From IMG/VR virus record IMGVR_UViG_3300019776_000324, positions 188,001-252,000 of that record: a DNA stretch of 64,000 nucleotides, one strand, 5' to 3'. Positions 1 to 61,019 of this stretch are shown here, in pieces. Numbering within the stretch: position 1 is the first letter of the stretch; each line of letters opens with the position of its first letter. The notes under the pieces were generated by a model. That model saw only the letters and a list, made by a program, of their open reading frames with translations. It was not told where the DNA came from and did not search any database. This DNA is from a virus. Position numbers and translations under genes: made by a program.

Positions 1-45
1 AAATCAAAGGCAAAAGTCATGATAACTATTTACAGGAGATTGACA

Positions 46-399
46 ATGAACATAATTTTTGGTGACAATATAGCAGCACTTGAAGACAAGTACACAGTAT
101 TAGAGTTAGATACCTTTCGTATCGGATCAGATGGTCCAGTTAATACTGCTTATTGTGTTTTGGAACTTATTCCCCTTGAAGAAATGGCTCTAGCTGAAAG
201 TATGGTAGATTTACATCATAATCTTATGCAGGAGTACAAGAAGCGCAATTGGAACTATTGCGAGCAAGCCATGGAACAACTTATGGGCAAATGGAACGGC
301 GAACTGGATACTTTTTATCAAGAACTAGAAAAACGCATCGGCAAGCTAAAAACCCTGGAGTTAACCAACGAATGGTCTCCTATAATTGAAAAAGTCTAA
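46..399 (+). CDS. conserved phage protein of unknown function
   Basis: A 117-residue soluble protein, Asp/Glu rich, beginning MNIIFGDNIAALEDKYTVLE. An in-frame ATG exists at 19, but the start at 46 has a good AGGAGAT ribosome site at 34-40. It has no signal peptide, membrane segment or enzymatic motif that I recognise. It resembles hypothetical proteins I recall from marine T4-like phages, so its function stays open. A late promoter separates it from the curli genes downstream. Confidence 0.75.
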   Translation: MNIIFGDNIAALEDKYTVLELDTFRIGSDGPVNTAYCVLELIPLEEMALAESMVDLHHNLMQEYKKRNWNYCEQAMEQLMGKWNGELDTFYQELEKRIGKLKTLELTNEWSPIIEKV

Positions 400-439
400 A
401 AACCCTTAGTAATACCACTTAATTTCTTGCTCTAGATCC

Positions 440-447
440 TATAAATA
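440..447 (+). promoter_or_regulatory. T4-type late promoter TATAAATA before the curli cluster
   Basis: The octamer TATAAATA is an exact match to the T4 late promoter box. Transcription should start about six bases after it, leaving a short leader with the AGGAGCGA ribosome site before the ATG at 465. This places csgF, csgG and the following genes in the late class, inferred from sequence only. Confidence 0.75.
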
Positions 448-464
448 TCAATAGGAGCGAGAGT

Positions 465-917
465 ATGATAATAATAATAAGATTTACTCTGCTATGTATA
501 ATTGCGATCTCCTTACAAGCCGTCGCAGTGTCAGCAGAACTGATTCATCAGTTTAACAGCCCCGCCTTCAGCGGAATTGGCTGGTCCAGTCATGTGCTAA
601 CCATTGAGCAGATGGAAGCCGCACGGGCTCAAAAAATCAAAGACGAAAACAAGGCTGCGCAAGATAAAGCTGAGCGCGACGCTAAAAACACTAACTTGGC
701 TAAGTTTTTAGTCAATGTGGAAAGTCGTATCTATGCACAATTATCCAAGCAACTAGCAGATGCCATGTTCAGTGATGGCGGAAATAGTGGTAACATGGAC
801 TTTCAAGGTACAAATATCAATTGGGTTAAAACCGCAACTGATGTTACATTAACAATTACGGAAGCTGGCGGCGGTGTAACGCAGATAACAGTTCCGTTGG
901 CGAGCTTTGCATTCTAA
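465..917 (+). CDS. csgF: curli assembly protein CsgF-like
   Basis: A 150-residue secreted protein. Residues 1-24 form a signal peptide ending VSA. The mature N-terminus (ELIHQFNSPAFSGIGW) matches the CsgF pattern of an F-x-NP-x-F-G segment, the part that inserts into the CsgG pore in E. coli. A charged, Ala/Lys-rich helix (about 45-90) and a C-terminal beta region with ITVPLASF follow, as in CsgF. In bacteria CsgF caps the CsgG channel at the cell surface and links secretion to nucleation. Its stop overlaps the csgG start (TAATG), so the two are translationally coupled. Confidence 0.85.
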   Translation: MIIIIRFTLLCIIAISLQAVAVSAELIHQFNSPAFSGIGWSSHVLTIEQMEAARAQKIKDENKAAQDKAERDAKNTNLAKFLVNVESRIYAQLSKQLADAMFSDGGNSGNMDFQGTNINWVKTATDVTLTITEAGGGVTQITVPLASFAF

Positions 918-1699
918 TGAAACGGCTTGCTATACTCTTCTGCACACTAGCCCTCTCAGGTTGCGCTAATCTTCACATGATGGCCGCACAGGAAGAACCT
1001 GTGGTCGTTCAACCCAAAGAAAATTTAATGGCCAAACTACCTACACTAGAAGGCCCACCAATGACTGTAGCAGTGTATGGGTTCAAAGACCTAACTGGAC
1101 AAATGAAACCCAACGACAAACTAGCAGTATTCAGTAAGGCTGTTACGCAAGGTGCAGAAGTATTTTTAATTAAGAGTCTACAAGATTCTAGAGGATGGTT
1201 TAGAGTTGTTGAGCGTGTTGGACTTGACAACCTAATTAAAGAGCGTCAACTTATACGCAATCAGCGTGAAGTGTACGAAGGTAAAGATGCCAAAGCATTA
1301 AAGCCACTAACTGTGGCAGGTGTCTTGATTGAGGGCGGAGTTATTGGCTATGACAGCAATATACGCTCAGGTGGTAACGGTGCCAGATTTTTAGGCATCG
1401 GAGGCAGTCAACAATACAGAGTAGATGAAGTTACAGTTAGTCTTAGACTAATCAGTATTGCATCCGGCGAAGTATTGTTAACCAACGCTGTAAGTAAAAC
1501 CATTTACTCTACAGCACATGATGTAGGTGTACTAAAGTTTGTAGATAATGCAACCAAAGCATTGGAAATTGAAACTGGCACCGCATTAAATGAGCCCACG
1601 ACTTATGCAGTTCGTGTGGCCATTGAGCAGTCAGTTTACGAAATGATAGTAGACGGACAACGAAAGGGTCTTTGGAATTTTGTCCAAAGCAAAAACTAA
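917..1699 (+). CDS. csgG: curli secretion channel CsgG-like lipoprotein
   Basis: A 260-residue CsgG-family outer-membrane lipoprotein, close to the E. coli length. The lipobox LSGC places the lipidated Cys at residue 16. Family hallmarks run in order: VAVYGFKDLTGQ, RGWFRVVERVGLDNLIKERQ, GGVIGYDSNIRSGGNGARFL, the QYRVDEVTVSLR strand, and the C-terminal NEP...AVRVAIEQ...DGQ...LW helix. CsgG forms a nonameric diffusion pore exporting curlin subunits. Coupled to csgF upstream and followed one base later by the curlin-repeat gene. CsgE and CsgC are not seen. The family match is very clear; the role during infection is unknown. Confidence 0.93.
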   Translation: MKRLAILFCTLALSGCANLHMMAAQEEPVVVQPKENLMAKLPTLEGPPMTVAVYGFKDLTGQMKPNDKLAVFSKAVTQGAEVFLIKSLQDSRGWFRVVERVGLDNLIKERQLIRNQREVYEGKDAKALKPLTVAGVLIEGGVIGYDSNIRSGGNGARFLGIGGSQQYRVDEVTVSLRLISIASGEVLLTNAVSKTIYSTAHDVGVLKFVDNATKALEIETGTALNEPTTYAVRVAIEQSVYEMIVDGQRKGLWNFVQSKN

Positions 1700-1700
1700 A

Positions 1701-2321
1701 ATGAAATCAAGTATGACAAGCGTTTGTAAGTTGCTGAGTAAATTACTTACTGTAGTAGGAATCGTAGCCATGGGTAGTGCGATGGCCAATGAAGTTTATG
1801 TCGAGCAAGTAGGCAGTGGATCTACAATTAACATATTACAAGAAGGTTCTGATAATAGAATTGGCACAAGTTTATCGCCAGCCTATATTGGGTCTGGATC
1901 TAATACAGTTAATATTGATCAAATTGGTGCCAACAATACCTTAGACATGGTGGTTAATGGATCATCAACAGATGTTACAGTATCAACCACTGGTAGTAAT
2001 AACACTCAAGAGATTCAGTGCGGTACGACTGGGTCATCTGGTTGCGGTGGTAGTGTAATTACTCAAACCATTACAGGAGATAACAATACTGTACGACAAC
2101 TGCTAGGTGCTGGTGCCAATCATACCAGTAATATTGCAGTAACAGGTGATACCAATACTGTTACTCATACTAGTACTGCCACAGGCACAACCTCGGCAGA
2201 TATTACTGTAACAGGAAACACTAATACAGTAGCAGTTACTCAATCAGGAATGTTGAATCATAGTGTCACGGTTAATAGTAGCGGTAACCTTAATAACATT
2301 AGCATTATTCAGCGAGACTAG
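1701..2321 (+). CDS. curlin-repeat secreted protein (CsgA/CsgB-like)
   Basis: A 206-residue predicted amyloid subunit. A signal peptide (about residues 1-29, ending GSAMA) precedes imperfect repeats of the form V-x-I-x-Q-x-G-x-x-N, for example INILQEGSDN, VNIDQIGANN, VTQSGMLN and the terminal ISIIQRD. The Gln/Asn/Gly/Thr richness fits a curlin beta-solenoid. It has one Cys-containing loop (CGTTGSSGCGG), unusual for curlins. A TTG at 1680 is in frame but lies inside csgG, so the ATG at 1701 is preferred. Its last 59 bases overlap the next gene in another frame. Likely the substrate of the CsgG/F pore. Confidence 0.8.
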   Translation: MKSSMTSVCKLLSKLLTVVGIVAMGSAMANEVYVEQVGSGSTINILQEGSDNRIGTSLSPAYIGSGSNTVNIDQIGANNTLDMVVNGSSTDVTVSTTGSNNTQEIQCGTTGSSGCGGSVITQTITGDNNTVRQLLGAGANHTSNIAVTGDTNTVTHTSTATGTTSADITVTGNTNTVAVTQSGMLNHSVTVNSSGNLNNISIIQRD

Positions 2322-3348
2322 TATATCAGCGGTAGGGAAAGTTACAGAACAAACTGGCCCTACCGAGATAGTTAGAAACAAAAAGTCCTCGCCGAGTGCG
2401 GTTAATGCGCCAGTCGAAATGAACGACACTATCATTACGGCCAAGGCAAAGGCAAAATTAACATTTGAAGATAACACCACAATAAACATTACAGAACAAA
2501 GTAAAGTATTGATTGATGACTTTGTTTATGATCCAAAGAACAAAGATGCTGGCAAACTGTCAATGAAGATGGTACAAGGTACAGCTCGATATGCGTCAGG
2601 ACAGATTGCTAAAAACAATCCTCAGGCAGTAAACATACAAACACCCACAGCTACAGTAGCAGTGCGTGGCACAGATTTCTCAATGACAGTAGATGAACTA
2701 GGTCGTAGTCTTGTTATGTTGTTACCAAGTTGCGATAAGAAAGGTTGTGTTACTGGAGCAATTAGTGTGAGTAATGAAGCTGGTACAGTATTTCTTGATG
2801 TGGCATTTCAGGCCACATTAGTTACTAGTATTTCAGTACCGCCACAGGCACCAGTAATAGTAACTATTGATACTGCTAACATTAATAACTTGTTGATTGT
2901 TAGCCCTCCTAAGGAAGTAGTTAAAGACACAAATGAAAACTCTCAGAAAACTGCACTTGATATAAACTTCTTAAACAAAGATCTACTCAAGTACAATGAA
3001 TTAGATAAAAACGAATTGGAAAAATTTAGATCCTTGGACATTAACTTTTTAGATGTAGACTTATTGGTAAACCTATTAGACCTAAGCACTGCACAACTAT
3101 CAGCCAGTCAAGAACAACTGTCTAACGAAGCTTCGTTGTTACCAAAGTATTCGCCAGCTTCTGGAATAACTTACTATTTTAGTGATGACGAAAGTAAAGT
3201 AATTCTTCGTAAAGTTACCACACATATTGCAGAAGTTACTGTACCTGTAGACCACGATGTTGTAATTAATATCACGCAGGATGGTACAGCAGTAACACAG
3301 CAAGTCAATCGCGGTGGAACATCAGTTATCAATATCATTCAGCGTTAG
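2263..3348 (+). CDS. secreted FecR-domain protein with C-terminal curlin-like repeat
   Basis: A 361-residue protein. The GTG start gives a good signal peptide (MSRLIVAVTLITLALF..., cleavage near ISA), encoded entirely within the tail of the curlin gene. Residues about 25-165 are a FecR domain (TEQTGPTEIVRN; DTIITAKAKAKLTFEDNTTI; QTPTATVAVRGTDFSM). A linker with two DINFL repeats follows. The last 30 residues (NITQDG...QQVNRGGTSVINIIQR) read like one curlin repeat and end almost like the curlin protein. It may nucleate, anchor or co-assemble with the fibre. This is inference; the domain calls are firm. Confidence 0.85.
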   Translation: MSRLIVAVTLITLALFSETSISAVGKVTEQTGPTEIVRNKKSSPSAVNAPVEMNDTIITAKAKAKLTFEDNTTINITEQSKVLIDDFVYDPKNKDAGKLSMKMVQGTARYASGQIAKNNPQAVNIQTPTATVAVRGTDFSMTVDELGRSLVMLLPSCDKKGCVTGAISVSNEAGTVFLDVAFQATLVTSISVPPQAPVIVTIDTANINNLLIVSPPKEVVKDTNENSQKTALDINFLNKDLLKYNELDKNELEKFRSLDINFLDVDLLVNLLDLSTAQLSASQEQLSNEASLLPKYSPASGITYYFSDDESKVILRKVTTHIAEVTVPVDHDVVINITQDGTAVTQQVNRGGTSVINIIQR

Positions 3349-3444
3349 CTCCTGAGTAAGTATGCCGTTTATATTTTACGATTAATTCTTAAATAGAATG
3401 CAGGCATTATAACTAAAACAAGCCGGCTACGAAGGATTTTTAAG

Positions 3445-3470
3445 TACCCACTTTATTGTGGGTATTTTTT
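3445..3470 (+). terminator. Rho-independent terminator after the curli genes
   Basis: Perfect 7-bp stem TACCCAC / GTGGGTA with a six-base loop, followed by a run of T. It closes the csgF-csgG-curlin-FecR transcript and separates it from the cyclase gene. A GTG in frame with the cyclase lies inside the stem and is therefore not used as its start. Confidence 0.85.
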
Positions 3471-3472
3471 TC

Positions 3473-3480
3473 ATTAAATA
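3473..3480 (+). promoter_or_regulatory. late promoter variant (ATTAAATA) before the cyclase
   Basis: ATTAAATA matches the TAAATA core of the T4-type late box. It ends four bases before the ATG at 3485, so transcription would start at or next to the ATG and the mRNA would be leaderless. No Shine-Dalgarno sequence is seen. Confidence 0.5.
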
Positions 3481-3484
3481 CTCT

Positions 3485-5533
3485 ATGCTTAAAAAAATAA
3501 TAACAAGTCCTTGGACAGCATTACTAACATTGGCACTAGTAGTTGGATTGCGTGTAGCAGATCCTACTTTTGTTGAAAGCGTTCGTCTGCGCTACTTTGA
3601 CACACTAGTAACTAGTAAACCTGCAGAGGTCATTGGAGTTAGTGTTGTAAACATAGACGAGAAAGCCTTAGAAAAATATGGTCAATTCCCTTTCAGTCGC
3701 GATATCTACGCTTCCGTTATTCGAGAACTTTATCGTCGTAACGCTGGTCTGGTGGTTTTTAATATTCTTACTCCTGATCGCGATCGTATGGGTCAGGATC
3801 AATCTTATATCCAAGCACTCAGACAGTTCCCAACCATCCTACCTAGTATTGGATCTACACAAACAAGAAACCAACCAAGAAACCCAGGAACGATTATAAT
3901 TGGACCATACCAAAATCAAATAGTTACATATCCTGGAATTATTGCCAACATACCTGCTGTTGAAAATGCAGCTGCTGGAGTTGGAATTGTAAACACTTTT
4001 CCAGAAGTTGACGGAGTAGTAAGACGCATGCCGTTGGTAGTAATGAGCGATCAAAAACTTTATCCTGGTATGGCCATGGAAGTGTTGCGTGTAGCAGCAG
4101 GAGACTCGACATTCCAGGTTAAACTAAACGAGAATGGTGTAGAGAAAATGCGCATTCCAAAGTTTGGACCTATTGCTACTGATAGTTTAAGTCGTATTTG
4201 GATTGACTGGAGTTTGGTTCCGGACAAGTATAGTTTAACCAATCTGCCAGATGATTTTGAAGGTGAAATAGTTATTGTGGGTGTGTCAGCCCAAGGATTA
4301 AGTAATCCAGTAGCAACAAGCATGGGTGAAATGCTACCACAAGATTTACAAGCAGCAGTATTAGGCACAGTAATAGCAAATAAAGATCGACCTGCTATCA
4401 CTCGCCCAGATTGGGCCGATGGCGCTGAAATTATATTTGTGTTAGTGGCAGGTATTTTATTATTATTTTTATCAAGGTGGGTTTATGTTGGACTTTGTGC
4501 ATCTGTTGTTATACTCGGCGGGAGTTTACTATTTTCTAGTTGGGCTTATGGAAGTCTCGCTTGGCTTGTGGACGCAACTGTTCCGGTCGCTGGTCTTGTC
4601 ATTGTGCTTCTTCATGCTTATGGTGTTAAGTTTGTAAGTGAGTTCTTACAGAAGCAAGCGATCAAGAAACAGTTTGCTGGCTACTGCTCTAAAGAAGTTG
4701 TGGATATGTTGCAGAAGGATCCAGACTTGATCAAGCGTGGTGTGCGTAAGGATGTAAGTGTTATGTTTAGTGACCTGCGTGGCTTTACTCCTATTGGTGA
4801 ACACTACGGTGATGATGTTGCTGGACTTGGCAAGTACATGAACGGCTATATGGATGCTATTAGTCAGCCTATCATGGACAACAAAGGCATGGTTATCAAG
4901 TATGTAGGAGATGCAAGTATGCATATTCACGGTGCTCCTATTGAAGATCCTAATCACGCAAGAACAATCGTTGCTGTCGGTCTACAAATGTTAGATGCTG
5001 TAGACGAGTACACTAAGCTAATGGAAGCACAAGGCTTACCTCCTGCGGCAATGGGCTGGGGTTGTAACTCGGGCATTGGCTTTATTGGCGAAATGGGAAG
5101 CACAGATAGACACAGCTATGACATTTTAGGTGATATGGTTAGTACGGCGGCACGATTAGAAGCTCGTTGCAAAGCATATGGTGTACTATGTATTATTGGT
5201 GCTGAAACTTACAATCGTACCAAAGATGATTTCTTCTACCTGTTGTTAGATAACTTACAACCAAAAGGTAAAACTGTGGCAGACTTGATCTACACAGTAT
5301 TACGCACCAAAGGCGCAGACTACACCAAAGAACTATCAACACATAACAAGATGCATGCATTATACAAAGAGAAAAATTTTGATGCGGCCGCTATCTTATG
5401 TGGAGAATTAATTGGTAAGTTTGGCGGACAAATGGACAAGTACTATAAGATTTGGATCGAGCGTTGCGAGTTTATGAAAGAACAGAACTTACCAGAAAAC
5501 TGGAATGGTGAATTTGTAGCGCACGAAAAATAA
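3485..5533 (+). CDS. CHASE2-domain membrane adenylate/guanylate cyclase
   Basis: A 682-residue class III nucleotide cyclase. It has an N-terminal membrane helix, an extracytoplasmic CHASE2 sensor (about 30-300, with VVNIDEKALEKYGQFPFSRD), three membrane helices (about 310-385) and a C-terminal cyclase domain. Metal-binding Asp430 (FSDLRGFT) and Asp476 (KYVGDAS) are present, as are the adenine-selecting pair Lys472 and Asp546 and transition-state Arg557. The usual transition-state Asn is Ser553 (MVSTAAR). It probably makes cAMP, perhaps weakly. The start at 3485 avoids a terminator overlap. CHASE2 cyclases and FecR proteins are often neighbours in bacteria, so it may sense the curli/FecR product. 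Confidence 0.9.
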   Translation: MLKKIITSPWTALLTLALVVGLRVADPTFVESVRLRYFDTLVTSKPAEVIGVSVVNIDEKALEKYGQFPFSRDIYASVIRELYRRNAGLVVFNILTPDRDRMGQDQSYIQALRQFPTILPSIGSTQTRNQPRNPGTIIIGPYQNQIVTYPGIIANIPAVENAAAGVGIVNTFPEVDGVVRRMPLVVMSDQKLYPGMAMEVLRVAAGDSTFQVKLNENGVEKMRIPKFGPIATDSLSRIWIDWSLVPDKYSLTNLPDDFEGEIVIVGVSAQGLSNPVATSMGEMLPQDLQAAVLGTVIANKDRPAITRPDWADGAEIIFVLVAGILLLFLSRWVYVGLCASVVILGGSLLFSSWAYGSLAWLVDATVPVAGLVIVLLHAYGVKFVSEFLQKQAIKKQFAGYCSKEVVDMLQKDPDLIKRGVRKDVSVMFSDLRGFTPIGEHYGDDVAGLGKYMNGYMDAISQPIMDNKGMVIKYVGDASMHIHGAPIEDPNHARTIVAVGLQMLDAVDEYTKLMEAQGLPPAAMGWGCNSGIGFIGEMGSTDRHSYDILGDMVSTAARLEARCKAYGVLCIIGAETYNRTKDDFFYLLLDNLQPKGKTVADLIYTVLRTKGADYTKELSTHNKMHALYKEKNFDAAAILCGELIGKFGGQMDKYYKIWIERCEFMKEQNLPENWNGEFVAHEK

Positions 5534-5534
5534 T

Positions 5535-5948
5535 CTAATTTACAGGCACACGAAGATGCACAGCTATGGCGCTGGCACCACCTGCATTAACTTGTGGAAT
5601 AGCGATAGCACATAGATAACTGTAACAAACTTCAGGAAATGCCATGGGTGCAATCTTGTAGGAATTATATCCTGTTACTAGTCCAGCACCAATGCCTATG
5701 TCCCAAGGCCCGTCCTTATATAAAGCATAACGAGCATAACCATAGGTGCTGCCACGATACTCGCTATTGCGATACCAACCACCAGCAACTGACCAACTGT
5801 CTGTAATAGTTTGTTCAAGGCCTGCTCCGTAATTAAATCCATTGAACCCAGGGCGGTCATGCACACTGGCTCCGTTGACTTGGATATATGTTTCTGCTAA
5901 TGATAGATTGCATACTGCTATTAACAGCATAGCTACAAGTGTTTTCAC
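5535..5948 (-). CDS. small outer-membrane beta-barrel-type protein
   Basis: 137 residues. A signal peptide (MKTLVAMLLIAVCNLSLA) is followed by alternating aromatic/glycine strands: YIQVNGASVHDRPGFNGFNYG, SVAGGWYRNSEYRGS, GYARYALYKDG, IGIGAGLVTGYN. This suits an eight-strand outer-membrane barrel. The Ser-x-His near the N-terminus recalls small phage-encoded outer-membrane proteins and lipid A enzymes of the PagL/PagP type, but no catalytic set can be assigned. It ends one base from the cyclase gene on the other strand and is the last gene of a minus-strand cluster. Confidence 0.6.
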   Translation of the reverse strand: MKTLVAMLLIAVCNLSLAETYIQVNGASVHDRPGFNGFNYGAGLEQTITDSWSVAGGWYRNSEYRGSTYGYARYALYKDGPWDIGIGAGLVTGYNSYKIAPMAFPEVCYSYLCAIAIPQVNAGGASAIAVHLRVPVN

Positions 5949-5956
5949 ACTTTTAC

Positions 5957-6253
5957 TTATTTGTCTTTTTTAACGACTTCGTTAATTTGTGATTCAGCTT
6001 CTACACGCTCGTGCTCGATGGTCTTGCCGCGTAGGTGTAATACTGTGTTTACTTTTTGATTTAAACGAATTAAATCATTATCCAGCATGCGGATACGATC
6101 AATAAGAGCAATAAGAACTGTATTGGCGTCATTGATAACTGGCTTAACTTCTGTAGTAGCCCAAATCCAAACATATTTAATAATCATCCCCATTCCGACG
6201 GCCATAACAATTGGAAAGCCGTATTTGTTTACTAAGTTTACTATTTCGCCCAT
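5957..6253 (-). CDS. small membrane protein with coiled-coil tail
   Basis: 98 residues from the ATG at 6253 (a GAAG-rich leader precedes it). It begins MGEIVNLVNKYGFPIVMAVG with one or two membrane helices, then a charged helical tail (DNDLIRLNQKVNTVLHL). The organisation and the short GFPI motif match the product at 6883-7164, so the two are probably paralogues. Phage holin or spanin accessory proteins can look like this, but no specific function can be assigned. Confidence 0.7.
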   Translation of the reverse strand: MGEIVNLVNKYGFPIVMAVGMGMIIKYVWIWATTEVKPVINDANTVLIALIDRIRMLDNDLIRLNQKVNTVLHLRGKTIEHERVEAESQINEVVKKDK

Positions 6254-6254
6254 T

Positions 6255-6449
6255 TTATTTCTTCCACGGTGATGATGCACCGCCCTTTTCTAGTCTATCT
6301 ATTTTTTTCTGTAAGTCTTTATTAAGTTTGACCCATTGCTTGCCATTTTCAATTGCTTCGTTTAGTGTTAACAAAGCATACATGCTTATAATAATAGCAA
6401 TGCCACCCATGATAAAGCCAATAAACGCATAAGTTACTTCTAACATCAT
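6255..6449 (-). CDS. small membrane protein
   Basis: 64 residues starting at tandem ATGs (6449 or 6446). One N-terminal membrane helix (FIGFIMGGIAIIISMYAL) is followed by a Lys-rich amphipathic helix (KQWVKLNKDLQKKIDRLEKG). Its start overlaps the stop of the 38-residue gene upstream, and its stop lies one base before the next start. Function unknown. Confidence 0.65.
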   Translation of the reverse strand: MMLEVTYAFIGFIMGGIAIIISMYALLTLNEAIENGKQWVKLNKDLQKKIDRLEKGGASSPWKK

Positions 6450-6562
6450 GCTAACAACCCTACAATAACTCCAGCAACAAACGCTATCAGCGCAAACTTG
6501 GCCAAATCCCAATCGGTCCAAATTTGTTTAATGGGTAATGCATAAGGATCATACTTTTTCAT
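6446..6562 (-). CDS. 38-residue single-pass membrane peptide
   Basis: Very short gene: an N-terminal MKKYDPYALPIKQIWTDWD, then one membrane helix FALIAFVAGVIVGLLA. Its ATG at 6562 lies inside the preceding gene and its TGA overlaps the following ATG, so it fits the coupled array. Support comes from open frame, overlap spacing and a clear membrane helix. Function unknown. Confidence 0.6.
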   Translation of the reverse strand: MKKYDPYALPIKQIWTDWDLAKFALIAFVAGVIVGLLA

Positions 6563-6743
6563 TGTTATCACCATCTTTTAAAAATTTCACTAAAGGATCT
6601 ACCTTAACCAACACACAACGACCATTGACATTTTTAACTTGAAAATAATCGCCGCTCTTCCAATCTAGTTTGTCTGTATCAAGCTCGGCGTCTAATACAA
6701 TCCTATTAGGTTCTAGGTCCCAGGTATAATCGTAGTACAGCAT
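6549..6743 (-). CDS. conserved small phage protein
   Basis: 64 residues, soluble, beta-rich, beginning MLYYDYTWDLEPNRIVLDAE. It resembles a small protein I recall from several T4-like phages. Its start overlaps the previous stop (TAATG). No known motif; function unknown. Confidence 0.7.
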   Translation of the reverse strand: MLYYDYTWDLEPNRIVLDAELDTDKLDWKSGDYFQVKNVNGRCVLVKVDPLVKFLKDGDNNEKV

Positions 6744-6883
6744 TATTCGGCCTTGTTTAAATCACTTAGTCGATCAGCACAAGCACGAATGTTTTTGCTT
6801 AATTCACCGAATCCAATTCTTTGTTCTACTTGGTGAGCAATACTGTGTAATTGCATAACTAGATATTCAATATCAAAGTCCAT
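6743..6883 (-). CDS. 46-residue helical phage protein
   Basis: Short gene encoding MDFDIEYLVMQLHSIAHQV followed by a helical segment ending LSDLNKAE. The start overlaps the preceding stop (TAATG at 6881-6885) and its own stop overlaps the next start. This double coupling supports a real gene. Function unknown. Confidence 0.6.
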   Translation of the reverse strand: MDFDIEYLVMQLHSIAHQVEQRIGFGELSKNIRACADRLSDLNKAE

Positions 6884-7164
6884 TAGTCTCTCCGTGCATC
6901 ATTCTTGCCGTCGGCACGAGCAATACGATCTGTGTCGGGCTTTAAGCCTAGTGCGTTACTGACAATAGTGTCAATACGGATAACATCGTGATTCATTGTT
7001 TTAACACGATTATCTAAGGCTGTAATAATGCCAGCCATGCCTTTAATAGCTGACAGAACTCCAGCTAGTAATAGTTTAATTGTGAGATATACAAAGTAAC
7101 CACCAGCAAGTGCAGTGGCAATTGGAAAACCTAGATCCCCAATGATTTTGAAGATTTCATTCAT
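6883..7164 (-). CDS. small membrane protein, paralogue of the 5957-6253 product
   Basis: 93 residues, MNEIFKIIGDLGFPIATALAGG, with two hydrophobic segments (about 12-45), then a helical tail with NRVKTMNHDVIRIDTIV. The tail pattern matches DRIRMLDNDLIRLNQKV of the 5957-6253 product. A strong AGGAGC ribosome site precedes the ATG. First of the coupled series of small genes. Function unknown. Confidence 0.7.
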   Translation of the reverse strand: MNEIFKIIGDLGFPIATALAGGYFVYLTIKLLLAGVLSAIKGMAGIITALDNRVKTMNHDVIRIDTIVSNALGLKPDTDRIARADGKNDARRD

Positions 7165-7202
7165 ACTCAGCTCCTTTTGTTAGAGTCTTTTTATTATGTG
7201 AG

Positions 7203-7210
7203 TATTTATT
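7203..7210 (-). promoter_or_regulatory. late promoter variant (AATAAATA) on the minus strand
   Basis: AATAAATA reads towards the small membrane-protein array and leaves a leader of about 35 bases with an AGGAGC site before the ATG at 7164. Core TAAATA matches the other late boxes in the window. Confidence 0.45.
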
Positions 7211-7228
7211 TTAGTTTTAAATTATTCG

Positions 7229-8527
7229 TTATGTAGGGTTTTTAAGCCATTGCACTAGCAGTTCAACATCCTTTTGTGTGCGCCAAGGCAGGTCACTGTT
7301 TACTATTTCTGCTACTTCGGGATTGTGTTTGGCAACTTCTCGTAAATCATAAAAATGTTTACCACCTTTGTGCTGATTCATTTGTTGTACACCTGCAGTC
7401 AAGTTTGTTTTAAGTTCGTTGAGGATATTGTTTTGCCAGTCTACAGAGAAAAACAATTGTTTGTTATAATCAGCAATGGCCTGTGCTTCGGCCATTTTGC
7501 GTTCTCTAACCCAGGGCATCCAGTTGGCAATTTGTTTCATAAGATCCGCAATTCTTCCCAGTCGTTCTTCTGGATCTGCACACTGATCGTATCGTTCGTC
7601 CCAAATATGACCAAAGGTTTTGAATCCATAACTGCGCAGGTATTCTAAACTGCCAGGTGTACCAGCTAATATAAAAGGTTGTCCGCAAGCAATGGGTCGC
7701 AAACTTTTTTCAGTTAAATGAAGTCTACTGTCATCAAATAATGTTTCTAGCACTACTTCTATATCTGTAGACTCGTAATCTGCAATATCAAAGTCAGCAC
7801 TGTAGTGACTTTGTGCTGTGCTAATTGGAAAGTAGTTTTCTAACACATTTGTTGGACGCCACACAGGATTTTTAAACTTGTGTAATTCATAGTGTATGCC
7901 TAACTCAGGCTCGACTGCATTAATACTCATCTTGCAATCGTTTTCTAATCCTAGACGAACTAGGAAGTCGGCAAGTTTTAATCTGTATTCTCTAGTTCCG
8001 GCCCAGGCACGATTGTAAATTAAAAATCTTTTTTCTACTTGTTTTGATTGTGTAACATGCTCGGCATAACGAAACCAATCTCTAGCAATAACAGCGTGAC
8101 TCCACCAGTAGACTGCAATGAAATTGTTGTCTTGATATTTTGCAAGCTCACTGCTATTTTTCTCTGAATGTAACAACAAGGTATAATCATAACAACTTAA
8201 AGGAGATTCAACTGCTGAGCGTAGATGCAAGCTGGCTACTTTATTGATTAGGTATTCACCACGAGTATGATATTTTCTAGAAAACTTAACAAAGTCATAC
8301 AGCATTTCTTTGGTGTATAAATCATAGTACAATGGTTCTTGATCGTGACAAATTAGATTGGCAGTTATTTGTTGTTCAAACCAAGATCGGTTGTCTTGAT
8401 ACAATGGAACCAAGTCATCAAGTTTTTTTGATCCATGAGGGAAAAACCGATAAATTATAGTATCGTTTGTGATTTGCTTTAAAACACTGTCGATGTACAA
8501 ATAAAAACGATCTAATGGAATACTCAT
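7229..8527 (-). CDS. glycosyltransferase-like protein
   Basis: 432 soluble residues. The C-terminal half contains DDSRLHLTEKSLRPIACGQP followed by FILAGTPGSLEYLRSYGFKTF. This E-K-S/T...G-x-P-x-I/F...G pattern is seen in phage and bacterial fucosyltransferase/exostosin-type GT-B glycosyltransferases, where it binds the nucleotide sugar. The N-terminal half is not recognisable. It may glycosylate a virion protein, host surface or DNA; the acceptor is unknown. Its start lies about seven bases from a minus-strand late box. The gene is divergent from the 2OG oxygenase gene. Confidence 0.6.
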   Translation of the reverse strand: MSIPLDRFYLYIDSVLKQITNDTIIYRFFPHGSKKLDDLVPLYQDNRSWFEQQITANLICHDQEPLYYDLYTKEMLYDFVKFSRKYHTRGEYLINKVASLHLRSAVESPLSCYDYTLLLHSEKNSSELAKYQDNNFIAVYWWSHAVIARDWFRYAEHVTQSKQVEKRFLIYNRAWAGTREYRLKLADFLVRLGLENDCKMSINAVEPELGIHYELHKFKNPVWRPTNVLENYFPISTAQSHYSADFDIADYESTDIEVVLETLFDDSRLHLTEKSLRPIACGQPFILAGTPGSLEYLRSYGFKTFGHIWDERYDQCADPEERLGRIADLMKQIANWMPWVRERKMAEAQAIADYNKQLFFSVDWQNNILNELKTNLTAGVQQMNQHKGGKHFYDLREVAKHNPEVAEIVNSDLPWRTQKDVELLVQWLKNPT

Positions 8528-23464: not shown

Positions 23465-23829
23465 AAGCATTTCAAGAGATTACCGAGTGGGATACAGATT
23501 TTGCTATGCCCAACCATGTTTACTTTTTGTCAGATTCAAAGGACAAAATGTACGGTTATGTAAAGTCCAGCACAGGTGAGATTCAAGAAATGACCACTCC
23601 TTATAAGTTCAAGGCTAGTGGACGCAAGTTTAAGGAAGTTAATAACATTTGGGGGTTCTTCCCTAAAGAGGAATTGATCTTAGTTGGTGAAACTTTTCGA
23701 GTGCCTGGATCAAAGGGTTCTGTTTATACTGTGACTAATGATCGCGGATCATGGACTTGCACCTGCCCAGCCAGTAAATGGCAAAAGGGCGAGTGCAAAC
23801 ATATCATTCAGTTAAAAATTAATAATTAA
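23461..23829 (+). CDS. SWIM-type zinc-finger protein
   Basis: 122 residues. The C-terminus SWTCTCPASKWQKGECKHI contains CxC...CxH, the SWIM zinc-binding motif used for DNA or protein contacts. The N-terminal part (WGFFPKEELILVGETFRVPG) is not recognised. Last of the early run; its end overlaps the end of the convergent tail-fibre gene by four bases. Confidence 0.7.
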   Translation: MKAFQEITEWDTDFAMPNHVYFLSDSKDKMYGYVKSSTGEIQEMTTPYKFKASGRKFKEVNNIWGFFPKEELILVGETFRVPGSKGSVYTVTNDRGSWTCTCPASKWQKGECKHIIQLKINN

Positions 23830-25742
23830 CTTATTTTAGTCCAACCGTAGTTTATAGTTTGGCTGGAGCCCGAATTGTTAGTAATACCAAATGTAAACAC
23901 ATTGGTATTGGCCACAGCAGGTGCTGCGTTACTAATTGATCCTGCTGTTCCAATAATTTGATTGGGTATGCTGGTCCAAACTAGATTATTTCCTGTTAGA
24001 TAATACCAGGCAAATTGTTGCCCGATCGCTGGGACATTAGTATTGCTAAGACTTACAGTAGCATTCCATACAATGATACCGTTGGGTATGTTTCCATCAA
24101 CCCACAAGGCATAAGTTGCATTTGCAGGTACTGTAAAACTGTAAGTGCCAGAACCTGTGGTTACTGTCCATGATCCTTTAGATTGAGTAGCAACATTAGA
24201 AAGTGTTGCACCATTACCAAGAAGATTACTACCTGCAATATTACCTGTGGTACTGATATTACCTGGTGTGTATAAGGTACCATCGGTACTTAACACCATT
24301 TCTTTTGGTGTACCATCGCTGTCCGCAACAAATGTGATACTGGTGGTTGAATTCAATCCTGGGGAAGCAGTTGCAGTGGCATCGCCTAGTACTAGATTAC
24401 CGTTAGTAGCTTCTACATAAACATTATTAAGAGCACGAACATTGCCGCCTGTGATGTTGCCGATTGCACTTAAATCTATAGCGCCAACACTATGAAATCC
24501 GTTTAAACTCGGCGCAGGACTTGCACCACTACCTGTGATATTACCACTGGATAATACAAGATTTCCGCCAACACCTAAATCAATTCCGCCAGGCAGAATA
24601 ACTTGACCATTATCGGTAAATGTCGACAAATATCCATTGGAGTTAATAACAATATTTGCAACTGGCGATTGTTTTGTAATAGCAACTAACCCTCCGCCAG
24701 TATATGGTGTCCACCCACTGGCATCTACTAAATCTGTATAAGTGGCGTCTGTGTATAACCGATATGTAACAGTGTTAACTGATTCATAATACCAGGTGCC
24801 CAGTGCTTGAGTAGTGCTTATGTCACCGGTAATTGTTAACTGGCCGCGAGTTGGTTGGCTAAACGGAAACCCAAATACATCCATTTGAGCACCCGGGGCT
24901 AATGCTATAGAATTTATACCATCATTGATAACAATAGCAGTACCACCGTTGATATAGCCACTGTTTAGAGAAATATTATTTGCTGTAATAGTACCACCGG
25001 TAGTTGTAGAATAAGTTACCGCGGGTCCGCTGGCACTGAATGTGACCGCGCCATTGTCGGTTACAGTTTGTGTGTTGCTAGAATCTATAAGGTATGTTCC
25101 AGCAGACTCAACATCTAATAGAAGTTCTGTACCAGTTACTGCTGTCAGTGATGTAGTTGGGACAGTAATAGTTGAAGCATTAGGATCGTACACATTATAT
25201 CCAGCTACTGCTCTAATTTGAGTTGCGCCACCGGTATACCACCATTGACCACCAGTGTTGAATTTACCAACACTTGTACTTGCTCCACTAAAATCATAAT
25301 TAGTGGTTGTTATTCCATCTGATGATCGCACACCGTCGACAAACACAGTTTCGTCACCGCTACTGTTTCTTGTTACAGCAATATGATGCCAAGTATCATC
25401 GGCCATTGGTGCTACTGTATAGTTGTTGGCTGCAACACCATCTTGGTCAATATGTATTTGAGTAGCACTAGAAATTACTAAACTAAATCCACTGTTATCA
25501 GGAGTTAACGATCCTAAAATGGGGCCAGGTAAATTTGCTGCTTGGAAATAAACAAAGCACTCAACAGTATAAGCACCCGATCCAATAGTAACACCTGGAG
25601 AGAATGACAACCAGTTGCTACCACTAAACATTAACGAACCAATATTTTCTAATGTTGTTTCTGTTGATGTTACTATATTAGTACCTGTTATATTACCTGT
25701 AGTGCTAAACCCGCCGTCCGAGTTAAATGGTTGTTGTGACAT
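23826..25742 (-). CDS. tail-fibre protein with LamG-like carbohydrate-binding domain
   Basis: 638 residues. A short N-terminus with STTGNITGTNI is followed by a concanavalin/LamG-type domain (about 30-205: FSGSNWLSFSPG, YTVECFVYF, DDTWHHIAVTRN, ETVFVDGV). GNI-type fibre repeats and a C-terminal beta domain (TYSFTVPANATYALWVDG) follow. Such modules in phage fibres bind surface glycans. Last gene of the minus-strand fibre operon; AGGAAA site upstream. Confidence 0.82.
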   Translation of the reverse strand: MSQQPFNSDGGFSTTGNITGTNIVTSTETTLENIGSLMFSGSNWLSFSPGVTIGSGAYTVECFVYFQAANLPGPILGSLTPDNSGFSLVISSATQIHIDQDGVAANNYTVAPMADDTWHHIAVTRNSSGDETVFVDGVRSSDGITTTNYDFSGASTSVGKFNTGGQWWYTGGATQIRAVAGYNVYDPNASTITVPTTSLTAVTGTELLLDVESAGTYLIDSSNTQTVTDNGAVTFSASGPAVTYSTTTGGTITANNISLNSGYINGGTAIVINDGINSIALAPGAQMDVFGFPFSQPTRGQLTITGDISTTQALGTWYYESVNTVTYRLYTDATYTDLVDASGWTPYTGGGLVAITKQSPVANIVINSNGYLSTFTDNGQVILPGGIDLGVGGNLVLSSGNITGSGASPAPSLNGFHSVGAIDLSAIGNITGGNVRALNNVYVEATNGNLVLGDATATASPGLNSTTSITFVADSDGTPKEMVLSTDGTLYTPGNISTTGNIAGSNLLGNGATLSNVATQSKGSWTVTTGSGTYSFTVPANATYALWVDGNIPNGIIVWNATVSLSNTNVPAIGQQFAWYYLTGNNLVWTSIPNQIIGTAGSISNAAPAVANTNVFTFGITNNSGSSQTINYGWTKIS

Positions 25743-25756
25743 TTATTGTTTTCCTA

Positions 25757-27814
25757 TTAATCTACCATGAGTCCAAATTCTGTTGCATCAAAACTAGCCC
25801 AGCCATTTTGGCCCACAGGAAGTTGTAATAAAATTTGTAATTCGCCAAGTCCACCTTGTACCGCTGTAACAATAGTATCGGCAACAAGTGGATTAGCCTT
25901 AATTCTGTTGCTTACTACCCATAACAACAATCCTGAGTTAGCATAATCGTAAGTCACAACAACATCAAATTGTTCCCAGTTAGCGCCAACTCCTGTGCCT
26001 TGAACAGCAAAAGTAACTTTGGCACTGTTGATGTTTACACCTGTTTCTGACTTATACACCACAGTGGCGGAACCATCACCTGGTAATTCTACAGCAAACG
26101 GATTAGTTGCGCCAGTGTAAACACCGTTGATAATCTTGCGTGAACCTCGAAGCACTTGTGCTTCGCCCGGTGTACCATTTGACCCAGCATCTCCAACATT
26201 GGTTGGTGCTAATACTAAGTTTGCACCAGTAAATGTCCATTGTCCTTGTAATCCTGTGCCATCACCGTATGTGGAAATGTTTAATGTACCGTCAGCGTTA
26301 TCTGTAACACAACTTGAGTACATTCCACTGGAGTAATAACTTGTTAAACTAGTAATGTTACCATTGCCGCCAGTTATCATTGTGCCATCGCCCTTAACTC
26401 CAGCTGGTCCAATGTATCCACCAGTTGGCAAGTTTAAGTTGCCGTTGTTACTAAAGAACCATGAATGAGTATTACCAGTATCATTAACTCCCATTTCAAC
26501 AGAAAAACCATTAGAATCAATATAAGCCCAATTAGTTATAGCGTCAGTTGAGTTAGGATCAACATTGGCAACATCAGTGGTCCATTGTAACTGAACAAAA
26601 TTATTTGACACTAAATTAACTGGACCTGCTAGAGTATTTGCAGCGCGAATAGTACCAGGATTTGGTAAATTTAACGCACCGACATTATCAAAATACCAAA
26701 CATGCTGGTCTATTCCATCTTTAACTGCTAGTGCTAGATTGCCATCTTGTACATACAAATATCCGTCACCTGGGCCAAGTATATTTCCTAAACTGTTTTC
26801 TTGTGTGCCGTCCCAGGTGCTACTGGTTATGCCGAGGTCAAGAAAGTGTGTGCTGTCAGTGCCGTTGTCTGAAGTAATAATGTAATCGCCACTGGCTACA
26901 GGTGAGTCACTGATATTTTGAAAATTAGTTTGGCTATATCCAATAACATTGCCTGTAACTTGTGTCATTACTGACGAGCCAAGAATAGTAAATCCTGGAA
27001 CACCGGTATACAATCCATCAACTCCAGAATCTGGATTTCCACTAAATGATGCAGTATGCGCATACAAGGTGTTGCCTGCATAGTTAAATCCTGCTGCTGC
27101 TCCTAAGTGGCCATCGATGTTAATTTGCACTGAAGTATTGCCATCGGCGGCAGGAATATTACCAATAAAATTAGTAGCTGTAATATTGCCCGAGGTACTA
27201 ATGCTGTTGCTACCAAAGCTGGCTAATAGAGCAGTTACATTGCTGTTACTATAATTTCCAGCAGGCAAGTTGGTCAATTGACTGCCATCACCTTTGACAA
27301 ATCCGGCTGTAATATTACCAGTAGTACTAATTACATTAGCGCCAAAACTAGCCAAGAATGTAGCAACATTACTATTGCCATAGTTACCGCTACCGCCACC
27401 AATACCGCTAAGGATACTTACGCCATTGGCATAGTTGATGTTTGAAGTGTTGCTTGGTAATGTTATATTACCAGTTTTACCAAATGTATAAGTCGCTGTA
27501 AGTACGGCGTTGTTGCCAGCACTTAGAGCAATATTGCCATAGGTGTTGTTTAGTTGAATAGGACTGGTACTGCCATTGGCAGGAATAACCATTGCCGCTG
27601 TAGCACCATGTGATAAATCTGCATTTTCTATGATCATGCCATTTAGATCATAGATAGCGTCTCCGACAAATCCAATGTTGCCAGTACTAATTGGAACAGT
27701 GCCGCCACCTGTGCCTGCAGCTACCCACTTGGTGCCATCGTAAGTATAAACTACACCGTTTTCGGCTGTAAATGTATCACCTGTAGTAGGGTTTGGTGGA
27801 AATGTAATATTCAT
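25757..27814 (-). CDS. tail-fibre / virion structural protein with GNI repeats
   Basis: 685 residues. The N-terminus TFPPNPTTGDTFTAENGVVY then YDGTKWVAAG is a common start of marine phage fibre proteins. It is followed by repeats such as NVISTTGNITAGFVKGDGSQ and by C-terminal beta regions. An own late-type box (TAAATA at 27841-27846 on the minus strand) and an AGGACT site precede the ATG. Probably a host-range fibre. Confidence 0.8.
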   Translation of the reverse strand: MNITFPPNPTTGDTFTAENGVVYTYDGTKWVAAGTGGGTVPISTGNIGFVGDAIYDLNGMIIENADLSHGATAAMVIPANGSTSPIQLNNTYGNIALSAGNNAVLTATYTFGKTGNITLPSNTSNINYANGVSILSGIGGGSGNYGNSNVATFLASFGANVISTTGNITAGFVKGDGSQLTNLPAGNYSNSNVTALLASFGSNSISTSGNITATNFIGNIPAADGNTSVQINIDGHLGAAAGFNYAGNTLYAHTASFSGNPDSGVDGLYTGVPGFTILGSSVMTQVTGNVIGYSQTNFQNISDSPVASGDYIITSDNGTDSTHFLDLGITSSTWDGTQENSLGNILGPGDGYLYVQDGNLALAVKDGIDQHVWYFDNVGALNLPNPGTIRAANTLAGPVNLVSNNFVQLQWTTDVANVDPNSTDAITNWAYIDSNGFSVEMGVNDTGNTHSWFFSNNGNLNLPTGGYIGPAGVKGDGTMITGGNGNITSLTSYYSSGMYSSCVTDNADGTLNISTYGDGTGLQGQWTFTGANLVLAPTNVGDAGSNGTPGEAQVLRGSRKIINGVYTGATNPFAVELPGDGSATVVYKSETGVNINSAKVTFAVQGTGVGANWEQFDVVVTYDYANSGLLLWVVSNRIKANPLVADTIVTAVQGGLGELQILLQLPVGQNGWASFDATEFGLMVD

Positions 27815-27840
27815 TCTTAAGTCCTGTTATTGTTCTTCTA

Positions 27841-27848
27841 TATTTACC
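27841..27848 (-). promoter_or_regulatory. late promoter variant (GGTAAATA) on the minus strand
   Basis: Core TAAATA, about 26 bases before the ATG at 27814. Supports late expression of this fibre gene. Confidence 0.4.
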
Positions 27849-27883
27849 GTGACATAATGCAGTCACAGTTGCTAGCTTTCTGT

Positions 27884-28147
27884 TTAAATTTCTTCTTCTA
27901 ACCGATATCCACATCCATTGGGAATTCCTGACACTGTCAATGCTGTAACATCAGGATATCGACGACAGCCTTCGGGTCTAGTTTCATAGATATTACAAGT
28001 ACCATGTTCAGTATTGTATTCTGGACAAAATGTTTCAACATAAGTTTCTGAATCAGTGTAGGTTCTGACCCTGCAACATCCTCCATTGCAGGCTAGGCCA
28101 CCTAGGCATTGGCCACGAACCACAAGGTTGATCCATATTACACCCAT
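27884..28147 (-). CDS. Cys-rich metal-binding protein (YkgJ-like)
   Basis: 87 residues with clustered Cys: QCLGGLACNGGCCRVRTY, FCPEY, GTCNIYETRPEGCRRYP. CC plus the C-x-[IV]-Y-x2-RP-x2-C-R-x-[FY]-P block is typical of the YkgJ/UPF0153 zinc- or iron-chelating family. The start overlaps the end of the giant fibre gene by ten bases. May load or modify a fibre metal site; function unknown. Confidence 0.75.
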   Translation of the reverse strand: MGVIWINLVVRGQCLGGLACNGGCCRVRTYTDSETYVETFCPEYNTEHGTCNIYETRPEGCRRYPDVTALTVSGIPNGCGYRLEEEI

Positions 28148-31100
28148 GCTATGTATTCTATATCAATGTTGCCCAAGTCAATAGCACCACCTGTGATGTT
28201 CATGAATTGTATGCTCAATGTGTCTGCGGCACTTGCCCATGCAGCAGTAATAAAGATACCGTAAGTCAGTGCAGTTCCTACTGAAATAACCACCTTGTGA
28301 TTGGTAGTTAATCCAGTTAAGGTAAATGTTTGTGTACTAGCCGCAGTCTTACCAACCGATGCTGGGTTAATAACTAGGGTGCTTTTTAGTATGCTACTGC
28401 TTGCAAACACACCAGTTAGGGCTGATCCATTACCAACAAAGTTGCCACTAGTGGTAATATTACCTGTGGCAGTTACTTGTCCGGCAGTTGAAATATTGCC
28501 ACTTGTAACATTACCAGTGGCACTTACTATACCACCTGTTAGAACATTACCACCTGTGACATTACCAGTTACACTCAGACTTGATAATGTACCAACGCTG
28601 GTAATGTTAGGCTGACTTGCAGTTAATACTGTGCCAGTTAAGTTGCCAGTTACATTGCCTGTATGAATACCAAATGTGTTGCTGTTGACATTTCCAGCTG
28701 TAATATTTCCGCTGACACTTAATGCGCTAAGAGTTCCAATGGCTGTGATATTAGTCTGACTTGCTGTGGTCAGTGTACCTGTAATATTTGTACCAGATAA
28801 GTTGCCACCTGCAATGTTACCGACAACACTTAAACTTGTCAATGAACCAACACTGGTTATATTAGTTTGAGCAGCAGTGGTTAATGTACCTGTAATATTT
28901 GTACCAGACAAGTTGCCAGCAGTAACATTACCAGAGACACTTAAACTTGATAGTGTGCCAACACTGGTAATATTTGGTTGTGCGGCAGTAGTTAATGTGC
29001 CAGTGACATTGGTAACAATCAAGTTACTACCTACAATATTTCCTAATGCACTTACTATACCGTCGGTATTGATATTGGCTCCACGAACATTACCTGTAGC
29101 ACTTACAATTCCAGTAGTTAATAAATTGCCAGAACTGGTATTACCACTTACACTTACACTAGTTAATGTACCGACGCTAGTGATGTTTGGTTGTGCGTTT
29201 CCAGTTACAGTCACCGCAGTTGTTGCAGTTGTAGCAACTACACCAGTCAACACAGATCCGTTACCAATAAAGAAGCTACCTGTGATGTTGCCGGTGGCTG
29301 AAATTCCATCACCCGAAGAAATAGCACCAGTTGCGCTAACTTGTCCAGTGGTTAAAACATTACCACCAGCAATATTACCCGAGGCAACAACAATACCACC
29401 AGTTCTGATATTGCCACCATCCACATTACCTGTAGCACTTACTAGACCTGTGGTTCTTAGGTTGCCGCCAGAGATATTGCCAGTTGAGCTCAATACACCA
29501 CCAGTATTAATGTTGCCACCTGTGATGTTGCCTGTGGCTGATATCGATGAACTAAATGTTCCAGCTGTGGCAACCAAGTTGGCACCTGTGATGTTGCCTG
29601 TGGCTGATATGGCTGAACTAAATGTTCCAGCGGCAGCAATTAAATTAGCACCTGTGATATTACCTGTGGCACTAATAGTTCCAGCAGTTGCAAAGTTGGC
29701 ACCGGTTACATTACCGCTGGCACTCATCTGCCCACTAGTTCTTAGGTTGCCTGCATTAACATTTCCACTAACACTTGCGCTGGTCAGTATGCCCACGCTG
29801 GTAATATTTGGTTGAGCAGCCGTAGTTAATACAGAACTCGAGAATGGTGCTGTAATATTACCAGTAATACTGAGATTTGTTCCAAACACATTTCCTGATG
29901 CTGACAAGTTTGCGGCCTGTACAAGACCAACTACACTTAGGCCTGTGTCGGTAATAGTAGCACGAAGATTGCTGGTATTTGATCCTCCTGTGACAAACTG
30001 TATTACCTGTCCTGCATTGTTGGTAATCAATAAAAGATTTCCGCCACTAGCTGAAACAAATGTATCACTGTCGCCAAGTATTGATAAATCTGGATTTGAA
30101 AAAGTGCTACTGGTTATACCAATGGCTGCCGAGTAAGATGGACTATCTACACCTAGATCATTTAAAGCAACAAACATAGACATAGCATTAGTACCCGAGC
30201 TATGATTAATCTGTACTAACTGTGCAGGATTATTTTGATTCGCATCAATTTGAACTATTGCATTGCCGTAATTGATACCCTCGTAGGCTGCACCAAAGTG
30301 TGCAGTTCCGTTGGCTACCAAGTTGGCAACAGCTATGTCATCGGCAGTTAACGCTAATGTCTTTAGTCCAGCACCGTCAGTATCCCAACGATTGTTGTTT
30401 AAGTTATATAAGAATGTTCTGTAGTAACTACCATTCGAAACATTACCAAGAATCATACCACCGCCATCAATCTGTGTATTACTTGTAGAATTGTTTGCTA
30501 AGGTAAAGTTTTTATCGTTGATTGAGATGGTATTGGCTGATGTGCTAGTACCAGTGATTACAATATTACCTACAGTGATATTACCAAACTGTACACTAGA
30601 ATTAGTATTAATATTCTGTGGTAGACTTAATGTCAAGTTCTTGCCACCTGAATCAGACACAATAACTTGATTGGTAGTGCCAACTACATTTTGCACACCA
30701 GTGGCATTGATAGCCACATTACCTTGTGTTACTGTCTGTGTAAGACCGGTACCTACTGTTAGACTTTGAACCACTTGTGTAGGAACAAAAGCTGTATTTT
30801 GGAAAGTAGTGTCAGGGAATGTTATACCAGAGCCTGCTACTGGTAATGTAATACCATCAGTGTCAAGTTGCAGTGCATTTACACCAGCACTTCCACCAAC
30901 AGGTGTTAATTTAAATTGTGCGTATGTTCCTTTGCCGCTAGTGTTGGTTACAAAATCTTCCGCAGCAAAGAACTGTAAGCCTGCTACTTGTCCTGTACTA
31001 TAACTAGGAATGCCGTTGGCAACAGTACCAGTCATACCAAGCCCACTAAAGCTGGCTAGAATGTCGTTTTGTAAAACATAGTGAGGATTGTCAGCTGTTC

Positions 31101-60962: not shown

Positions 60963-60981
60963 AATACCCAAAACACCTTAA

Positions 60982-61017
60982 ATCTAGTTTCTGCTAAATA
61001 CAGCAGAGGAACTAGAT
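60982..61017 (+). promoter_or_regulatory. hairpin with late promoter in its loop, hiding the next ribosome site
   Basis: Outer arms ATCTAGTT/AACTAGAT and inner CTGCT/AGCAG enclose a TAAATA late core (60995-61000). The AGGA ribosome site (61007-61010) for the fibre gene lies in or beside the 3' arm. Read-through mRNA would hide it; late mRNA starting near 61006 would lack the 5' arm and leave it free. Same design as T4 genes e and soc. Confidence 0.6.
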
Positions 61018-61019
61018 CT

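Follow-up and report, generated by a model that had tools for sequence, protein, structure and literature searches.

Why does a phage carry genes for curli (type VIII) secretion, and when during infection would their products act? The locus that raises this question lies at the start of a window of 64,000 nucleotides of viral DNA (64 kb), and its features are collected in Table 1. We consider it rather probable that the locus is a late-expressed curli module under a two-layer time lock, which exports curlin for a coat or fibre. The lock, a predicted hairpin in the csgF leader, bears on the question of why curli genes are found in phages.

Table 1. Features of the curli module and its surroundings (feature, position in the window, strand, evidence)
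csgF leader hairpin	428–465	+	fold z ~−3; covariation across relatives
Candidate T4-type late promoter box TATAAATA, core TAAATA 442–447	440–447	+	within csgF leader hairpin loop; conserved in relatives
csgF	465–917	+	Pfam PF10614, E 4.8e-15; N-terminal F-x-x-P-x-F-x-G motif (alignment)
csgG, outer-membrane lipoprotein pore	917–1699	+	PF03783, E 1.4e-52
Secreted curlin-repeat protein, ATG at 1701, signal peptide	1701–2321	+	PF07012, E 6.1e-5
FecR-domain protein	2263–3348	+	PF04773, E 2.2e-12
Intrinsic terminator	3442–3467	+	
TAAATA core, second candidate late promoter, 10 nt before cyclase ATG	3475–3480	+	conserved at −10/−11
CHASE2-domain membrane adenylate cyclase	3485–5533	+	PF05226 1.1e-36; PF00211 9.8e-14
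PagP-like lipid A acyltransferase, secreted small barrel	5535–5948	−	phrog_3600, 3e-13
Small holin-like protein, single TM and coiled coil	5957–6280	−	phrog_18771 5.5e-28; phrog_4898 holin 1.5e-4
Small holin-like single-TM protein	6883–7164	−	own TAAATA at −44; homologue precedes csgF in Melnitz and HTVC008M

The virus record that contains the window comprises 344,244 bases and encodes a T4-type major capsid protein gp23 (E 1e-97), a portal protein and a gp55-type late sigma factor (phrog_12791, E 7e-72); judged by its genes, the genome is that of a very large T4-like phage of 344 kb. A search of the genome for gp33 gave no match, and its positive control was equally silent. The preliminary description had pointed to curli-like clusters from T4-like phages predicted to infect SAR11; gp23 and gp55 confirm the T4-like part, whereas a link to SAR11 is not supported here, the relatives being T4-like contigs of up to 364 kb. 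CsgG relatives with an identity of 61–85% were found in at least 75 viral loci, many of which sit on contigs of 280–364 kb, and gp23 was present in all eight of the large relative contigs tested (278–364 kb). The genes csgF and csgG occur in 75/75 viral loci, curlin and fecR in 68/75 each, and the cyclase in 54/75; these counts cover the loci as read, several of which end early at contig edges. Comparison of pairs of relatives indicates purifying selection on csgF, csgG, curlin, fecR and the cyclase (dN/dS ~0.05–0.20). A match named 'Salmonella phage S.Kent' was set aside as an unverified 1.5-kb fragment, probably of bacterial DNA.

Profile searches matched all four products that had been described as one coupled unit (CsgF, CsgG, the curlin-repeat and the FecR-domain protein), and their gene junctions overlap or nearly abut, which supports that description. 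The stop codon of csgF and the start codon of csgG share one base in TAATG (915–919), curlin starts 2 bases past the end of csgG, and the 5' end of fecR overlaps the 3' end of curlin by 59 nt, so that the DNA of the last curlin repeat also encodes, in a different frame, the FecR signal peptide. The latter overlap is kept in all relatives measured (47–158 nt). The terminator reported behind the cluster was also found. The four genes do occupy 465–3348, but the module does not end at 3348 as had been proposed, because the CHASE2 cyclase gene beyond it is part of this module in other phages; the holin-like pair nearby had been missed as well. The PagP-like gene is loosely linked to the cluster (2 of the 75 loci).

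As components of a type VIII system, we found the CsgG pore lipoprotein, the N-terminus of CsgF and the curlin-repeat subunit. The CsgE gate gave no match in the phage's own genome record, which is possibly incomplete, in a search whose control detected CsgE in E. coli; the absence noted earlier is upheld for this record. Phage CsgG aligns with E. coli CsgG over nearly its full length (5e-48), its lipobox Cys16 is invariant, and its structure model matches the solved pre-pore fold 4uv2 (E 1e-18). We take Tyr51, Asn55 and Phe56 of E. coli CsgG to be the constriction residues; Phe56 is kept in the phage protein, and Tyr51 and Asn55 are replaced. The retained fold and lipobox speak for the secretion reading, the two replaced residues against it.

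The F-x-x-P-x-F-x-G stretch at the N-terminus of CsgF is conserved in the alignment and is presumably of the CsgG-binding type. Its retention argues against a proposal that CsgF in phages no longer has a CsgG partner (PMC9004378). By sequence, CsgF matched no solved structure. The curlin-repeat match lies above the family cut-off, yet it is the weakest of the four Pfam matches, and the signal peptide of this protein was identified by eye. The FecR protein consists of a signal peptide, the FecR domain, a Leu/Asp-rich linker and a C-terminal curlin-like unit; the last is present in the FecR protein of every relative and, in a weaker form, in Melnitz and HTVC008M. The structure model of this protein had low confidence and was therefore not used. 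The FecR protein is probably a periplasmic or surface-anchored partner or nucleator. Its curlin-like end and the occurrence of the module on dozens of large phage contigs provide concrete proteins to assay.

The claim of late expression had been founded on an exact TATAAATA box. This box is present, but its weight as evidence is small, because exact copies are not over-represented (2 against 5.8 expected in the window; 14 in the whole record, where the reversed motif has 19); we dropped it as an indicator of lateness and used a test of the core motif instead. Within 50 nt upstream of 166 ORFs, TAAATA was found 23 times against 1.9 expected, an enrichment of ~12-fold, in 124 kb of the phage's own genome with 57 occurrences in total on both strands. 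The genes it precedes include those of the portal, the head-tail adaptor and virion proteins, and this enrichment, virion genes included, makes TAAATA a good candidate for this phage's late promoter core. It should be noted that gp23 has no TAAATA directly upstream, which counts against this reading. By the spacing known in T4, the late csgF transcript is predicted to start near 452–454. Of 36 distinct relatives, 21 have TAAATA at −10 or −11 of the cyclase gene, as do Melnitz and HTVC008M by inspection; from such a position the transcript would begin at the start codon or immediately beside it, possibly yielding a leaderless or near-leaderless late mRNA.

The hairpin in the csgF leader has its left arm at 428–442, TAAATA in the loop and its right arm at 451–465, reaching the start codon, with the Shine-Dalgarno sequence AGGAG (453–457) inside the right arm. 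Across 38 distinct csgF leaders, the mean fold z against shuffles was −2.8, compared with −0.64 in ordinary leaders and −0.65 in 81 further genes of these phages that have TAAATA upstream (p 5e-8 against csgF leaders). The median probability that the Shine-Dalgarno sequence is unpaired was 0.06 for read-through RNA, 0.75 for late RNA (n = 38 leaders) and 0.54 for ordinary leaders. The arms covary, with a score of 0.54 against 0.20 for shuffled and at most 0.18 for slid alignments, and among 13 leaders in the same register both partners have changed in 11 of the 14 pairs. The hairpin encloses the core in 37/38 leaders and pairs the ribosome-binding zone in 31/38. A search of window positions 1–8000 against Rfam gave no credible RNA family.

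The distribution of the hairpin among relatives is consistent with a role against read-through. The lock is present in 0/3 leaders with an intrinsic terminator just upstream and in 31/35 others (p 0.004, in a test framed after the pattern was seen). Three leaders (L005, L008 and L075) deviate from this, having no significant fold, yet no terminator that would block read-through. The strand of the upstream gene does not predict the lock (p 0.24) and was rejected as a predictor. Overall, the prediction of late expression stands, now on a stronger argument than the exact box: the enrichment of TAAATA before genes, including virion genes, together with a conserved hairpin.

In T4, genes e, soc, 49 and I-TevI have a late promoter inside a hairpin at the ribosome-binding site, and the read-through RNA is untranslated, whereas the late RNA is translated (PMC3014915, PMC2988022). 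Box, hairpin and ribosome-binding site are arranged in the same way in the csgF leader, and two marks of a T4-type gated late gene are found, gp55 in the genome and a late box within a hairpin that pairs the ribosome-binding site. In contrast to the T4 genes, here a secretion operon would be controlled, the arms covary over dozens of phages, the box has the core TAAATA with a loose 5' end, and the gating is predicted from sequence.

The cluster itself is already known from pelagiphages and Melnitz. Phage curli genes were described by Zaragoza-Solas 2020 (PMC7029224) and Buchholz 2022 (PMC9004378), and, with FecR and cyclase in pelagiphages, by Wittmers 2022 (PMC9599517). The module in pelagiphages (HTVC008M, Melnitz; PMC9599517) shares the order csgF-csgG-curlin-FecR-cyclase and likewise has no CsgE; identity to HTVC008M and Melnitz is 47% for CsgG and 35–45% for the cyclase. 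It differs in residing in phages of 141–147 kb or podoviruses rather than in a giant 344 kb T4-like phage. The present phage has no second curlin, its cyclase gene stands behind its own terminator and candidate promoter, and its csgF is predicted to be hairpin-gated. What is new is the spread in giant phages, the hairpin lock, the curlin-like unit that ends every FecR protein, and the holin-like pair; in the open-access literature we found neither the hairpin nor a giant-phage curli module reported. Bacterial curli operons have CsgF, CsgG and curlin-repeat homologues in common with the module, whereas bacterial CsgG loci (L094 onward, leaving out the phage-like MAG contigs L109, L125 and L152) have no adjoining FecR, CHASE2 cyclase or small TM genes. 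We also considered whether the module came from a bacterium that has FecR and a CHASE2 cyclase next to csgG, and rejected this: none of the true bacterial loci was of this kind, and the matches to the full set were phage-like contigs binned in MAGs.

By analogy with T4 gene e, we infer that RNA reading through from upstream early in infection would fold the csgF hairpin and stay silent. Later, the gp55-type sigma factor would start RNA inside the hairpin, the left arm would be missing, csgF would be translated, and translation of csgG, curlin and fecR would follow through coupling. CsgG-CsgF pores without a CsgE plug would then enter the outer membrane late in infection and export the curlin-repeat protein, and the FecR protein would partner the CHASE2 cyclase, whose catalytic residues are kept and which would signal the state of the periplasm as cAMP. 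As a net effect, the infected cell may acquire an amyloid-like coat or fibre, by which other phages are excluded or cells are clustered. In this proposal the open pore must not appear early, because it would be harmful. As judged from the sequence, the module most likely serves to export curlin for a coat or fibre at a late stage, although clumping was not seen in Melnitz-infected cells (PMC9004378), which counts against this reading. The lock tells when the curli genes may act and suggests selection against early action; action confined to the late phase would leave a coat, exclusion, clustering or lysis as possible roles.

Lysis is the first alternative. CsgG as an outer-membrane pore and the two holin-like proteins in the inner membrane would form an egress device, with curlin and the FecR protein as plugs or triggers and the hairpin preventing premature lysis, as for T4 lysozyme, the best-known T4 gene with such a lock. 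A pinholin-like role for CsgG was proposed by Buchholz et al. (PMC9004378), although CsgG is an outer-membrane lipoprotein and pinholins work in the inner membrane. The 93-aa (6883–7164) and 107-aa (5957–6280) proteins are paralogues with matches to phrog_18771, small TM proteins occur near the cluster in ~45/75 loci, and homologues stand directly before csgF in Melnitz and HTVC008M, whereas here they lie downstream on the opposite strand. Their matches to the holin family phrog_4898 (1.5e-4 and 0.007) are weak and confined to the first 22–30 residues, and the strict keeping of curlin, CsgF and cyclase would be left unexplained; we regard lysis as unlikely. In Melnitz and HTVC008M, the small TM genes that precede csgF encode products of 92–115 aa with no kinase domain and are probably the genes called 'histidine kinase, sometimes two' by Wittmers et al. 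No 'histidine kinase' gene lies directly before csgF in this phage, whose small TM homologues downstream have no kinase domain either and are too short to be kinases.

A related reading treats the module as a late envelope machine of T4-like phages and not as an add-on metabolic set. The holin-like pair, a periplasmic FecR-curlin sensor with its cAMP cyclase and the ungated CsgG pore would jointly govern when or how the cell opens, and for this reason translation would be locked like that of lysozyme. We hold this view as doubtful, too.

Uptake of nutrients or signals, proposed earlier (PMC7029224, PMC9599517), appears quite improbable. An ungated CsgG pore would admit larger molecules, and the FecR-CHASE2-cyclase pair would sense the periplasm and alter host genes controlled by cAMP. 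The missing match to CsgE in the genome record agrees with this, as do the intact active-site residues of the cyclase: across 47 relatives it keeps the two metal-binding Asp, the adenine-specifying Lys and Asp/Thr and the transition-state Arg, with the usual Asn being Ser in 30/47, this phage among them, a pattern that indicates a CHASE2 class III adenylate cyclase. The FecR protein and the cyclase may act as partners, as their gene adjacency suggests, and in Sinorhizobium a FecR-domain gene likewise lies near a CHASE2 cyclase. Uptake would gain little from late timing, however, and such a pore needs neither CsgF nor curlin.

Finally, the loop of the csgF leaders is more constant than the stem, as would be expected of a protein-binding or RNA-processing site recognized through TAAATA with no time lock, but this is very improbable, since many hairpin-free genes have TAAATA at similar upstream distances, the motif matches the T4 late box, and the hairpin is absent where a terminator blocks read-through.

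Several observations were made beside the module. The genes adjoining the cluster in relatives L002–L073 include, by appearance only, Hsp20, ClpS, ribosomal S21, DnaK, ClpX/ClpP, haem oxygenase-like and desaturase genes. Large extra ORFs of 660–1445 aa are present in about 20 loci (e.g., L006:11128–13176 and L028:10444–12486), located either between fecR and the cyclase or in the csgF–csgG interval. An autotransporter beta-domain (PF03797, E ~1e-11) is present in at least two of them and a discoidin-type (F5/8 C) domain in one; ORFs with such domains read as phage-encoded autotransporter-like surface proteins. Window proteins of 638, 685 and 1656 aa were considered as autotransporters akin to these and rejected, having no similarity to them. 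They are repetitive, resemble tail fibres and are encoded at 23826–33108 on the minus strand, with TAAATA at −32 of the 685-aa gene and −28 of the 1656-aa gene.

In the stretches of the phage's own genome that were read, a similar leader with a late core in a hairpin precedes only the gene at 61020 (window 61020–62483, 487 aa; leader 60980–61020, z −4.2). In four relatives, genes upstream of csgF (L004:5943, L011:5949, L032:5958 and L035:5523) have CATAAATA in a hairpin loop, with the start codon itself paired in that hairpin, which amounts to a variant of the lock centred on the start codon.
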